Origin: a bacterium
GTDB lineage: Bacteria > CAIJMQ01 > JAADFP01
DNA length: 5,336 nt
Reading direction: 5' to 3'
Assembly (NCBI GenBank): GCA_027021085.1
Contig: JALUVB010000293.1
Span: 1-5,336, forward strand
Shown here: positions 431 through 5,336 of the stretch, piece by piece
Numbering within the stretch: the first letter of the stretch is position 1
How the letters are laid out: each line of letters starts with the position of its first letter
The notes under the pieces: model-generated
What the model saw: only the letters and a program-made list of their open reading frames with translations
Databases searched by the model: none
Told to the model about the DNA's origin: nothing
Translations under genes and position numbers: made by a program

Positions 431-2083
431 ATGGGCAAGATTAAGAAACTCCCGGAACATGCCGTAAAACTAATCGCTGCAGGCGAGGTTATCCTTGGCC
501 CCTACTCAGTGGTAAAGGAACTTGTCGAGAACTCTCTGGATGCAGGAAGTAAAAACATACGAATAAGCCTGGTAAAAAGCGGGGTGAAAGAAATCGTGGT
601 GAGAGACGATGGGCAGGGGATGGATAGAGAAGACGCTTTACAGGCATTTGAAAGGTACTCTACCAGCAAAATAAAAGATGTAAGGGATATTTCCCGGCTT
701 CACACTTATGGGTTCAGAGGAGAGGCACTGCCCAGTATTGCCGCTGTATCCCTTACCACCCTGAGTACTTCTACCGGAGAAGAGGGTACGCGGGTAAAAG
801 CAAAAGGCGGGAAAATTGTAGAAGTGGAAGAAGTTAATCTTCCACCCGGGACCCAGGTAAAAGTGGAAGAGCTGTTTTTTAATACCCCGGTAAGGAAAAA
901 GAGCTTCCACTCACCCCAGTGGGAATTGAAACAAATTCTGGAAGTGGTAGTGCGCGAAGCACTCTCTTCCTTGAAAGTATCCTACCAGGTGGAAAACAAC
1001 GGCAAAGAGGTTTTCTTTTCTCCCCGCAGGAATGAAATCATAGAAAGAATTCAGGACATATGGGGTAAAGAATGGAAAAACAATCTGCTTCCGGTTGAAT
1101 TCTCCTGGAAAGGGATGGAGATAACCGGTTGGTGCTCCTCCCCGGCTCAGGGGAAGAAATCTCCTGTTTACTACTTTTACGTGAATAATCGTTCTGTTAC
1201 ACACAAAGTGCTCAGGGGTGCAGTACGGGAGGCCTATTCCACCTACCTGGGAAGAGATGAATTCCCCATAATCTATCTTTTTCTGAATGTGCCCTCCCAG
1301 GAGGTGGATGTAAATGTCCATCCTTCCAAAGACGAAGTACAATTTAAACAGCCAGGCATAGTTTTTGAGGCAGTAAGGAAAGCCCTGCAAAACTCTTTCC
1401 CCTTGAAAAATGTCCGGGTATTTTCCTCCCCTACCCCAACCCCCAGCAACAGAAAAGACTCATCATTAGGCCTCTCTTTTGAAGTAAAGGAAAAAGGAAA
1501 GGAATACCAGGTTATTCCCTTTACCCAGATGCACCGCACGTATCTGTTCCGGGAAATAAAAGAAGGTATTTTAGTTATTGACCAACATGCTCTTCACGAG
1601 AGGCTGATATTTGAGAAATGGAGAGAAGGAATAAAGGGAAAGCAGGTACTTAAGCAAAAGCTTCTCTTTCCCGTTACCGTAGAGGTTTCTCCCCAGGAAG
1701 AAACCATCATCAGGGAAAACTGGCAGTCTATAGCTGAAATAGGCGTGGAACTGGAGGAGTTTGGCGCACGCACCTATCTCCTTTCTTCTCTCCCCTCTCT
1801 GATTGCCGGGAAGACTGATCCTCTGAAGACATTCTCGGATATCTTAGATGAAATTAAAAAAATTCCTACCGGCATTTCTTTACCGGAACAGATAGAAACT
1901 TTAATAAAACAGCTTTCCTGCAAGGCTTCCATAAAGGGAGGAGACACACTGAAAGAGGAAGAAGTGGAAAACCTTATGAAAATGTGGGAAGAAAACAGAG
2001 AAATAGTAACCTGTCCCCACGGCAGGCCGGTATTTGTAATAATCACCTGGGAAGAATTAGAGAGAAGATTTCAGAGAAGGTAA
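431..2083 (+). CDS. mutL: DNA mismatch repair protein MutL, endonuclease type
   Basis: This cytoplasmic GHKL ATPase couples MutS mismatch recognition to strand incision. N-terminal ATPase motifs are IAAGEV (15-20), VVKELVENSLDAG (27-39, catalytic E30, metal ligand N34), DDGQGM (59-64), STSKI (77-81), GFRGEAL (94-100) and NTPVRKK (151-157). VDVNVHPSK (292-300) carries the lysine that contacts the ATP phosphate. The C-terminal domain has the nuclease metal motif DQHA(X)2E(X)4E at 384-395, SCKASIKGG (496-504), CPHGRP (528-533) and a terminal FQR (547-549), so it should nick DNA itself without MutH. QKLLFP (409-414) matches the beta-clamp binding motif. At 550 residues it is somewhat short because the linker (about 321-357) is brief. 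The usual arginine of the RPxSVVKE motif is G23, and RHATSKI reads RYSTSKI. The ATG at 431 starts exactly at the conserved N-terminus. No mutS or miaA is adjacent. Confidence 0.97.
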   Translation: MGKIKKLPEHAVKLIAAGEVILGPYSVVKELVENSLDAGSKNIRISLVKSGVKEIVVRDDGQGMDREDALQAFERYSTSKIKDVRDISRLHTYGFRGEALPSIAAVSLTTLSTSTGEEGTRVKAKGGKIVEVEEVNLPPGTQVKVEELFFNTPVRKKSFHSPQWELKQILEVVVREALSSLKVSYQVENNGKEVFFSPRRNEIIERIQDIWGKEWKNNLLPVEFSWKGMEITGWCSSPAQGKKSPVYYFYVNNRSVTHKVLRGAVREAYSTYLGRDEFPIIYLFLNVPSQEVDVNVHPSKDEVQFKQPGIVFEAVRKALQNSFPLKNVRVFSSPTPTPSNRKDSSLGLSFEVKEKGKEYQVIPFTQMHRTYLFREIKEGILVIDQHALHERLIFEKWREGIKGKQVLKQKLLFPVTVEVSPQEETIIRENWQSIAEIGVELEEFGARTYLLSSLPSLIAGKTDPLKTFSDILDEIKKIPTGISLPEQIETLIKQLSCKASIKGGDTLKEEEVENLMKMWEENREIVTCPHGRPVFVIITWEELERRFQRR

Positions 2084-2841: not shown

Positions 2842-2869
2842 GTGACTATCTCTGCAAGGATGGTATAAT
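2842..2869 (+). promoter_or_regulatory. Strong extended -10 promoter of the secretin operon
   Basis: A perfect TATAAT (2864-2869) is preceded by TGG (2861-2863), giving an extended -10. A -35-like GTGACT (2842-2847) sits 16 bp upstream and shares TGAC with the consensus. The ATG at 2879 is nine bases beyond the -10, so the predicted start point (about 2876) leaves a leader of only a few bases. No Shine-Dalgarno is present before the ATG. Confidence 0.75.
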
Positions 2870-2878
2870 ATACAAACA

Positions 2879-3802
2879 ATGGTAAAAAACGGATTTTTTA
2901 TTTTTGTACTTGGTGTCTTTCTCGTCGGCTGTCTTTCTTCTGTGAGCCCGCTACCTTCCATAGAAAACCTGCTTTCCCAACAGAAATTCGAGGAAGCTAT
3001 TATTGCCTGCGAGCTTTTCCTCTCTGAAAACCCCTCCTCTCCCTATGCGCCAGAAATCACCTATCTCCTGGGCAAAACATACCTAAAAATAGGTAATCCT
3101 TACGAATCCATAAGAGTATGGGAAGACTATCTCCGAAAGTTTCCGGAAGGTAAACATAGAAAAGAAGTGGCATCCGCCATAGAAAATTGGAAGAAAGAGA
3201 AAGGCAAAAGCTATCTTTCCCAGATGGAAGAGGAAATAAAAGGGCTATCTCTTGCCTACGAAAAAGTACTGGGTAAAAAGATGCCTCCCTCCCGATTATA
3301 TGCTACCCTGGGTAACATTTACTGGGAAGAAGGAAAGAAAAAACAAGCCCTTTCCCTCTACAAGAAAGCAGTGCAACTTGATCCTTCTCTAATAAACAAT
3401 CCCGCCATTGCTTCCCGCCTGGGAAATTCTACCCTGGAGCCAGCACCTCTCCTGCTGGAAGTGGAAGATGAGAATATCTTATCCCTGGAAAAGATATGGA
3501 AAGGAGAATGGGAAGCAGAAAGCGGCGAACTTAAAAATTTTCGCATAAAGAGACGCCTGGGAATAATTGTCAGCGGCAAAGTAAGAAACAAAGGGACAAA
3601 AGAAGCTAAGAAAGTAAGATTATTAGTCACACTATACGACTTCTACGCCCGCATACTTTCTTCTAAAAGTATCTGGCTGGGAGAAATACCGGCAGGAGAA
3701 TCCATACCCTTTTCAATAGTTTTTAGGGGCGTAGAGAAAGACAAGGTGCACTCGGTAGATTACCTTATTCTAAAAAATAATAACCAGGAGGCAAAGAAAT
3801 GA
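2879..3802 (+). CDS. TPR lipoprotein with C-terminal FxLYD/DUF3426-like domain
   Basis: This 307-residue protein starts with a lipoprotein signal peptide whose lipobox LVGC places the lipidated cysteine at residue 18, so it should sit on a membrane facing the periplasm. Residues 26-90 form two TPR-like helical hairpins (AIIACELFLSENP, LGKTYLKIGNPYESI), and 138-170 is a clear TPR (YATLGNIYWEEGKKKQALSL, then YKKAVQLDP). Residues 220-298 form a beta-rich module of FxLYD/DUF3426 type (SGKVRNKGT 232-240, then LYDFYA, then PAGESIPFSIVF). It is the first gene of the operon and its stop overlaps the next start as ATGA. TPR lipoproteins of the PilF/PilW type act as pilotins for secretins. A pilotin-like role is inferred from the secretin three genes downstream; general scaffolding is the alternative. 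The ATG at 2879 is chosen because it directly opens the signal peptide. Confidence 0.88.
   Translation: MVKNGFFIFVLGVFLVGCLSSVSPLPSIENLLSQQKFEEAIIACELFLSENPSSPYAPEITYLLGKTYLKIGNPYESIRVWEDYLRKFPEGKHRKEVASAIENWKKEKGKSYLSQMEEEIKGLSLAYEKVLGKKMPPSRLYATLGNIYWEEGKKKQALSLYKKAVQLDPSLINNPAIASRLGNSTLEPAPLLLEVEDENILSLEKIWKGEWEAESGELKNFRIKRRLGIIVSGKVRNKGTKEAKKVRLLVTLYDFYARILSSKSIWLGEIPAGESIPFSIVFRGVEKDKVHSVDYLILKNNNQEAKK
3786..3791 (+). promoter_or_regulatory. Perfect Shine-Dalgarno AGGAGG
   Basis: AGGAGG lies seven bases before the ATG at 3799 and within the last codons of the lipoprotein gene. It contrasts with the lack of any such site before the first genes of the two transcripts, and it fixes the start of the 71-residue gene. 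Confidence 0.85.
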
Positions 3803-4014
3803 AGTTAAGAGAAAAAATTATCTGGATAGTAGTAGGTTTTCTGTTGCTGATTAATCTTTTCACCCTTTTAAACACACCATTAAGAGCACAGGCACTGCTT
3901 CCACCTTCTCCTGTTGCACTATCCGCAGGGGAGAAAGGTGTGGTATACTTTTATGACGGAGCAAATTTATGGCTTTCCCGCGATTACGGAGAAAACTGGA
4001 AAAAGGTAAAATGA
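3799..4014 (+). CDS. Small exported or membrane-anchored protein with one Asp-box
   Basis: This 71-residue protein has a charged start (MKLREK) and a hydrophobic segment at about 7-25. The segment is either a membrane anchor or a Sec signal with a possible AQA cleavage site at 30-32, which would release a 39-residue peptide. Near the C-terminus, SRDYGENW (60-67) fits the Asp-box pattern SxDxGxxW, preceded by a likely beta strand (GVVYFYDG 47-54). Asp-boxes normally occur as repeated beta-propeller blades, so a single one in a tiny protein is unusual. I do not recognise the family. The coding case rests on the perfect AGGAGG and on ATGA overlaps with genes on both sides. A role beside the secretin or lipoprotein is only inferred from position. 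Confidence 0.75.
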   Translation: MKLREKIIWIVVGFLLLINLFTLLNTPLRAQALLPPSPVALSAGEKGVVYFYDGANLWLSRDYGENWKKVK

Positions 4015-4358
4015 AATTTGTGCTCATTGGTTTCTTTGTTATTTTTCTTGCCTTAGCCGGTTCCGCCGCAGAACTCAGGCCCAGCCAGGTGTACTATGGT
4101 GACCCCTTTAACTTCAAGCACCCTGCTTCCATAAACATGGAAAAGGTAATCAATTCACATCCCCTCTCCAAGAAATTATCCTCCTACTCGGAAAAAGAGC
4201 CCGAGTTCTGGCTTTATCTGAATAAGATAAACCAGGACATATTCGATGTTCTACATAACTTTGCCCAGGAAAAAGGCTACGACCTGATTGTGGAAAGAGG
4301 AAGCATGAAAAACGTCCCGGATATCACCCGGGAAGTAATTTCCTGCTTAAAAAGATGA
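4011..4358 (+). CDS. Miniature Skp/OmpH-like periplasmic protein
   Basis: This 115-residue protein has a Sec signal peptide (MKFVLIGFFVIFLALAGSAA, cleavage about 20). INMEKVINSHPLSKK (41-55) resembles the first strand and helix of OmpH/Skp proteins. KINQDIFDVLHNFAQEKGYD (72-91), then LIVE and DITREVISCLKR (104-115), match the OmpH C-terminal body (IxxAVxxVAxxxGYDLVVD, then DITxEVxxxL). The long coiled-coil arms between these parts, about 90 residues in E. coli Skp, are reduced to roughly 15. Skp shields unfolded outer-membrane proteins, so this short form could assist the secretin encoded next, but without arms it cannot form the usual jellyfish cavity. The ATG at 4011 is preferred over 3969 because it opens the signal peptide, overlaps the previous stop as ATGA and follows a modest AAGG. 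The OmpH link is by eye and moderate. Confidence 0.8.
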   Translation: MKFVLIGFFVIFLALAGSAAELRPSQVYYGDPFNFKHPASINMEKVINSHPLSKKLSSYSEKEPEFWLYLNKINQDIFDVLHNFAQEKGYDLIVERGSMKNVPDITREVISCLKR

Positions 4359-5281
4359 AAAGAATTTTACCTCTCCTCTTTATCCTGCTTATTCCTTACT
4401 CCTTATGGGCAGTACTGCCCGACCAGGTAATGATAGAGGTAAAAGTAGTAGAAGTATCCACACGTTCAGGGAAACAAATCGGAGTAAGATGGGGCTATGA
4501 CAGGGAAAGGCACACAGTCAATCCCATAGCCAGCAACTATTACTCAGAAACCGGCACACCCAAAGCAAGAAGAGGAGGCGGAGAAGAAGCACCTCTATAC
4601 CAGGGAGAATTTGATTTCCTTAATTTAAACTGGGATAAAGGCGTTGACCTCCTCTTTGATAGAATCAAAATAGGAAAAACTCTTCTGGATGCACGCATTC
4701 AGGCTTTGATACAGGAGGGTAAAGCCAAACTTCTGGCCAACCCGCGTATCGTCACCATAAACGGGAAAAAAGCCACCATAATCTCCGGGCAGGAGATTCC
4801 ATTTCAAACCACCAAATTGGTGAGTACCCGCACCGTGCTTACCACGGAGTTTAAAACTGCCGGAGTAACATTGAATGTAACACCAAATATTCAGGAGAAC
4901 GATTTTATACTCCTGGATGTTGAACCCGAAGTAAGCGGGATAATAGGGCATGAGGATGTAGTCTTTGGCAATACGAGTGAGGGGCCTGATAATACAATGG
5001 TAGCCTCGCTCCCTGTTTTCTCTACCCGCAAGGTAAAAACACAGGTCCTGGTAAAAAACGGGGGCACACTGGTGATAGGCGGGCTCTACCAGAATAGCCT
5101 GGTTAAAGACGTGGAAAAGGTGCCGTTTCTGGGAAGTATTCCCGTTTTCGGCCTGCTTTTCAGGAAAACCGAAGAAAAGCTTGTGCAAAGTGAACTCTTA
5201 GTATTCATTACTCCCCGCATAATACGCCCCGGGGAAGGCATTGTTATTCCCCGGATGATTGAAAAAGAGAAAGAAAAGTAG
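4355..5281 (+). CDS. Short secretin-family outer-membrane channel (GspD/PilQ core only)
   Basis: This 308-residue protein has a signal peptide (1-19, ending SLWA) and then directly the secretin core. The core opens with VMIEVKVVEV (25-34) and IGVRWG (42-47), continues with ALIQEGKAKLLANPRIVTIN (117-136), and has gate-type beta strands at about 145-195 (GQEIPF, VTLNVTPNI). The secretin signature is at 236-268 (GGTLVIGGL, then VPFLGSIPVFGLL) and SELLVFITPRII (279-290) closes it. It should form an oligomeric outer-membrane pore. GspD, PilQ and InvG relatives are usually over 500 residues and carry periplasmic N0/N1/N3 domains, which are absent here. Residues 50-95 are a non-conserved insertion. 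The start overlaps the previous stop as ATGA and has no Shine-Dalgarno, indicating coupled translation. No secretion ATPase or platform gene is in view, so the substrate is unknown. Confidence 0.93.
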   Translation: MKRILPLLFILLIPYSLWAVLPDQVMIEVKVVEVSTRSGKQIGVRWGYDRERHTVNPIASNYYSETGTPKARRGGGEEAPLYQGEFDFLNLNWDKGVDLLFDRIKIGKTLLDARIQALIQEGKAKLLANPRIVTINGKKATIISGQEIPFQTTKLVSTRTVLTTEFKTAGVTLNVTPNIQENDFILLDVEPEVSGIIGHEDVVFGNTSEGPDNTMVASLPVFSTRKVKTQVLVKNGGTLVIGGLYQNSLVKDVEKVPFLGSIPVFGLLFRKTEEKLVQSELLVFITPRIIRPGEGIVIPRMIEKEKEK

Positions 5282-5336
5282 CCTTGTTATCATATTTGGC
5301 CTCAAGTTTACTCGCCTTACTCATTTTCTTTAGACC
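5282..5336. other. Operon end and probable start of another heptamer array
   Basis: The spacer after the secretin stop has no clear hairpin terminator in the 55 visible bases. TTTAGAC (5329-5335) followed by C matches the first unit of the NTTAGAC arrays, and TTACTCGCC/TTACTCATT (about 5308-5325) is a loose direct repeat. The window ends before this can be confirmed. Confidence 0.4.

Follow-up and report, generated by a model that had tools for sequence, protein, structure and literature searches.

A genus-specific four-gene cassette encoding a secretin without N-domains, a TPR lipoprotein and two small exported proteins

The window analyzed here is an entire contig (C293) of 5336 bp from a draft bacterial genome of 1.93 Mb in 307 contigs (G000), and it carries a compact cassette of four genes, the last of which encodes a secretin whose signal peptide is followed directly by a PilQ-type pore domain. 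In published descriptions, the pore domain of a secretin follows two or more N-domains, through which the protein docks to partners in the inner membrane (PMC10653833), whereas the 308-residue protein encoded at 4355–5281 has 23 residues ahead of its core. It is preceded on the same forward strand by genes for a TPR lipoprotein of 307 residues (2879–3802), an exported peptide of 71 residues referred to as p71 (3799–4014), and an exported protein of 115 residues (4011–4358). All four open reading frames were confirmed at these coordinates, as were the ATGA overlaps at all three junctions and the promoter, in agreement with the original prediction of a four-gene operon. The same four genes occur in the same order, and with the same overlaps, in the closest relative, G001, whose genome is the only other one in the genus, and by this layout they form one translationally coupled unit. 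A bacterial secretin that is free of N-domains, strongly selected and encoded in a unit of its own raises the question of which N-domain functions a secretin can do without or obtain in trans.

The evidence for a complete but isolated pore domain is consistent across several models. Pfam Secretin (PF00263) covers the whole of its 169 model positions (1–169) in the cassette protein with an E-value of 1.5e-48, the PilQ model TIGR02515 matches from residue 23 (E 7e-61), and the protein aligns with residues 319–569 of the solved PilQ 6w6m, which is the whole pore domain, leaving only the signal peptide in front. Neither an STN nor a Secretin_N domain was found with Pfam, and N0, N1, N3 and S-domains are all absent. 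The stop-to-stop frame comprises 340 codons, and its upstream end falls within the preceding gene's coding sequence; because the frame is closed so shortly upstream, no N-domain is hidden there. The claim that this is a core-only secretin was therefore borne out. All other secretins with an intact start have at least 88 residues ahead of the core in a comparison set of about 60 proteins from related and unrelated genomes, and core-only forms may exist elsewhere. PilQ (TIGR02515; 6w6m and 4av2) shares the full pore domain with residues 23 to 290 of the cassette secretin, as well as the absence of an S-domain and the nearby TPR lipoprotein, which recalls PilF/Tgl, but the cassette protein lacks N0, N1 and AMIN, and its locus lacks pilMNOP, pilB/C and pilin genes. 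Similar in domain content is the mitochondrial GspD of jakobids and heteroloboseans, which likewise consists of the C-domain only, without N0–N3 or an S-domain, but comes without the lipoprotein/Skp-like operon of the cassette (PMC8134430). The cassette secretin can thus be regarded as a bacterial counterpart of this N-domain-less protein, and one small enough to reconstitute in E. coli.

The cassette secretin is only about 30–40% identical to the other secretins of G000. In the tree it stands clearly apart, on a separate long branch, from the three secretin clades inherited by the class, a placement that speaks against its recent origin as a duplicate of a resident secretin. Its sister group is a mixture that includes Tad secretins, with just 95/75 support and long branches.

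Secretins of 378–402 residues from the same class were considered as orthologues and rejected, since they are the split form of an 890-residue secretin and retain an N-terminal region. In four genomes of another family of the class (G003–G006), a TPR/N-domain protein and the short secretin are encoded by separate adjacent genes beside PilM/N/O-like genes (L072 7118–9876, L073 8045–10810, L074 9638–12556 and L075 8874–10034). These pairs resemble the cassette in having a short secretin adjoining a TPR protein, but they keep at least 88 residues with an N-domain-like stretch and group in the tree with the 890-residue secretin encoded on C155 of G000. The contrast between the split pair in G003–G006 and the single 890-residue protein in the genus of G000 is, as judged from the sequences, the outcome of a secretin gene fission or fusion.

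Because synonymous divergence between G000 and G001 is high (dS = 0.35–0.87), a test based on the ratio of nonsynonymous to synonymous substitution rates (dN/dS) is meaningful. The ratio was found to be 0.085 for the lipoprotein, 0.036 for p71, 0.117 for the 115-residue protein and 0.018 for the secretin, making the secretin the most constrained gene of the cassette; the secretin core alone gave 0.012 and the neighboring mutL 0.055. All four cassette genes are real and under purifying selection, and pseudogene status was rejected on this basis. Identity between the orthologues is 85% for the lipoprotein and 97% for p71. Synonymous changes were fewer in p71 (dS 0.35 versus 0.69–0.87 in its neighbors), and 8 of its 34 fourfold sites were changed compared with 50 of 133 in the secretin, a difference that is suggestive only.

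Comparison of the flanking genes defines the limits of the cassette. In G001 the gene order is ABC transporter, mutL, the four genes, a gene for a Wzy_C O-antigen ligase with TPRs (Wzy_C/TPR), and a ribE-like gene. The same flanks are found in the window, where mutL lies upstream (431–2083, forward strand; Pfam MutL_C, 1.4e-33) with synteny in both G001 and the sister genus (G002), and where the start of the Wzy_C/TPR gene comes 2 bp past the secretin stop and runs off the contig on the forward strand (5284–5336); the complete gene in G001 encodes 553 residues. In G002, a single base separates the mutL stop from the Wzy_C/TPR start codon, which constitutes an intact empty site, and in the class's other family, too, these two genes lie close together, with no cassette. 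By these comparisons the four genes are a discrete, genus-specific cassette between mutL and an inherited Wzy_C/TPR neighbor, and these gene orders point to a gain of the cassette in this genus, or else to its loss elsewhere. Wzy_C/TPR was considered as a fifth member and rejected because its adjacency to mutL is already seen in the sister genus. The predicted end of the operon at the secretin accordingly holds for the cassette, but a transcription end at this point is doubtful given a gene 2 bp downstream.

In G001, the 28 kb surrounding the cassette contain no ATPase, platform or (pseudo)pilin gene. The original prediction of a discrete module outside any type II secretion system (T2SS) or type IV pilus locus was upheld by the co-inheritance of the four genes in G001 and the empty site in G002: the homologues do not lie within a standard locus of either kind, and the genes do co-occur. 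The observation behind that prediction is confirmed in substance, and its interpretation, as a self-contained channel-assembly unit or a split component of a pilus or secretion machine, is partly supported.

Secretion and pilus machinery is encoded elsewhere in G000, as had been suggested for checking: GspE/PilB-type ATPases, PilT and GspF were all found. In addition to the cassette secretin, the genome holds three others. One belongs to a GspD-E-F locus on C264, the 890-residue TPR-secretin on C155 lies beside pseudopilin and GspL-like genes, and the third, encoded on its own on C106 (L040 11641–13272) outside any pilus or T2SS locus, is an STN-secretin that ends in a long C-terminal tail and has orthologues in G001 and G002. 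C79, C25 and C90 encode additional ATPases of the PilB/GspE and PilT types. With motors encoded elsewhere in the genome, the cassette pore could borrow one.

Export signals were recognized by inspection on all four cassette proteins. The lipoprotein contains TPRs (Pfam TPR_2, 1.2e-12) and a lipobox (LVGC, by inspection) that points to an outer-membrane location. Its C-terminal beta domain comes near the FxLYD family NF038353 (E 1.5e-4, score 21.6 versus a cut-off of 23), and no match to this C-terminal part was found outside the genus in 41 genomes. The predicted likeness to a pilotin therefore stands for the TPRs and the lipobox, features shared with PilF/PilW/Tgl and TadD along with the association with an S-domain-less secretin, but it does not extend to a family match: the extra FxLYD-like domain sets the cassette protein apart, and it matches no model of these families at E≤1.

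The two small proteins are less readily classified. p71 has a hydrophobic N-terminus and an AQA site, and the C-terminal motif that had earned it the label of an Asp-box peptide was found to be sub-threshold (BNR/Asp-box E 0.06–0.07, 13.9 bits versus a curated cut-off of 27), so the label is too strong. The 115-residue protein, originally called a mini-Skp, matches Pfam OmpH positions 93–139 over its residues 70–111 (E 1.3e-5, 25.9 bits versus a cut-off of 32.4). When scored with a profile built from Skp proteins of the same class, it reached 16.0 bits, compared with 7.2 for the best of 1000 shuffled copies, and hhalign gave E 2e-4 with a probability of 46%. The last ~45 residues, which share the C-terminal helix-strand-helix (GYDLIV...DIT) with the genome's own Skp, are the sole Skp-homologous part, whereas the N-terminal half is unrelated. 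Skp holds its client with coiled-coil arms, and the arm region is not in the alignment of the 115-residue protein, which has no room for it. A full-length canonical Skp is encoded elsewhere in G000 beside BamA-like and LpxC-like genes. The Skp relationship of the C-terminal end is thus retained, but the chaperone label is too strong, and a model of the protein built from two sequences (predicted local distance difference test score, pLDDT, 65) had no Foldseek match. Relatives beyond the genus were found for neither small protein in 98 genomes, nor on plasmids for the 115-residue protein.

N-domains normally oligomerize and contact inner-membrane partners. We tentatively favor the possibility that the cassette encodes an accessory outer-membrane pore that would receive the missing N-domain functions in trans from the small partners and would use motors encoded elsewhere. 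The gene unit, the selection on it, the domain loss and the empty site are the parts of this explanation that can be read from the sequences themselves. Beyond these, the secretin subunits would oligomerize into an outer-membrane channel, and the TPR lipoprotein, judging by its architecture, may act on the inner leaflet of the outer membrane as a pilotin or assembly factor. p71 and the Skp-C-like protein would lie in the periplasm under the ring, replacing the missing N-domains as split parts, and the pore might then serve a type IV filament or a T2SS motor. Several precedents are consistent with such a scheme. In type IVa pili, S-domain-less secretins are piloted by TPR lipoproteins (Tgl/PilF), which have been suggested to engage the beta-lip in its unfolded state (PMC10653833), and TadD is essential to assembly of the Tad secretin (PMC6668835). 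PulD lacking residues 43–258, and with them most of its N-domains, still assembles in liposomes (PMC4604470), and mitochondrial GspD forms oligomeric complexes with all N-domains absent (PMC8134430); a split secretin arrangement is therefore physically plausible. Moreover, yeast two-hybrid results indicate that a separately encoded N-domain may bind mitochondrial GspD (PMC8134430).

A number of points weigh against a trans-supplied accessory pore. The main objection is that N3 is reported to be needed for assembly of bacterial GspD (PMC8134430). Neither p71 nor the 115-residue protein resembles an N-domain in sequence (Pfam, NCBIfam), no PilF/PilW family model was among the NCBIfam matches of the lipoprotein up to E 1, and the structure models of the lipoprotein and the 115-residue protein, built from two sequences each, are of low confidence. 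The cassette itself contains no pilin, platform or ATPase gene, so any coupling to a motor is putative, and the cassette is known from only two metagenome-assembled draft genomes of one genus. Finally, the G001 secretin gene (G001:C161, L035 13332–13350) is frame-shifted close to its 3' end by a tandem duplication of 17 bp, which may be either an assembly error or a real mutation.

This frame shift and the missing N-domains are what might be expected of the decaying remnant of a longer secretin locus. Such an origin is nevertheless very improbable in view of the dN/dS values (0.012 in the secretin core and 0.02–0.12 for the four genes) and of the overlaps and promoter, which are intact in both species. 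More serious is the possibility that secretin and lipoprotein constitute a gated channel in the outer membrane whose operation requires neither a type IV filament nor a T2SS motor, for example in efflux or uptake of large molecules. The lack of docking domains, the restriction of the cassette to outer-membrane and periplasmic parts and the strong selection on the pore domain all fit this idea, but motors are present in G000 and no secretin is known to function in the absence of an inner-membrane partner, so we consider it unlikely while giving it real weight. That the N-domain-free secretin, the lipoprotein and the two tiny periplasmic partners together make a working gate independent of any filament or motor likewise seems rather unlikely.

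The remaining alternatives assign the cassette to other systems. Truncated and full-length PulD form mixed multimers (PMC4604470), and with three full-length secretins in G000 the core-only protein might co-assemble with one of them and alter the number of N-domains per ring. Its ~30–40% identity to these secretins, its separate branch in the tree and its own operon partners make such a role improbable. Exopolysaccharide export uses pairs of a TPR lipoprotein and an outer-membrane porin, and the cassette, which offers a TPR lipoprotein plus a channel and is followed after 2 bp by Wzy_C/TPR, could act with the latter in a similar exporter. However, Wzy_C/TPR directly adjoins mutL in the sister genus and is close to it in the wider class, in both cases with no cassette; its position next to the cassette is therefore inherited from the insertion site, and we regard a polysaccharide-linked role as distinctly improbable. 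A filamentous-phage remnant with a pIV-like export secretin would account for the match to the PHROG pIV profile (7.8e-44), but this match is limited to the pore domain (177–401/403), and both PilQ-type models and solved PilQ score better. The best phage matches are about 31% identical, and the 28 kb of G001 contain no Zot, coat or replication gene, only housekeeping-type neighbors, so that a phage origin is scarcely credible.

Expression of the cassette is predicted to depend on an extended -10 promoter (GTGACT-N16-TGnTATAAT; 2842–2869, forward strand) with 10 of 12 consensus matches and a TG before the -10. The promoter block is conserved between G000 and G001, while the sequence further upstream has diverged. 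Because the -10 box ends only 9 bases 5' of the lipoprotein ATG, with no obvious Shine-Dalgarno sequence, the cassette mRNA is probably leaderless; this arrangement is also conserved in G001.

Two further features were observed around the cassette. At its 5' end, the mutL gene of G001 (G001:C161, L035 9042–10699) falls into three frame pieces, possibly because of sequencing or assembly errors. The intergenic regions of the window contain dispersed heptad repeats of the form (TAGACNN)n at 2095–2131, 2297–2333 and 2411–2447, and on the other strand at about 196–236 and 291–330. Runs of three consecutive units number 328 in G000, 153 in G001, 5 in G003 and 0 in G002, and the reversed-pattern control gave no occurrence in G000–G002. 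Companion 7-bp repeats of the type AGTGAACAGTAAACAGT are located at 2134–2178, 2451–2495 and 2523–2553 of the window.
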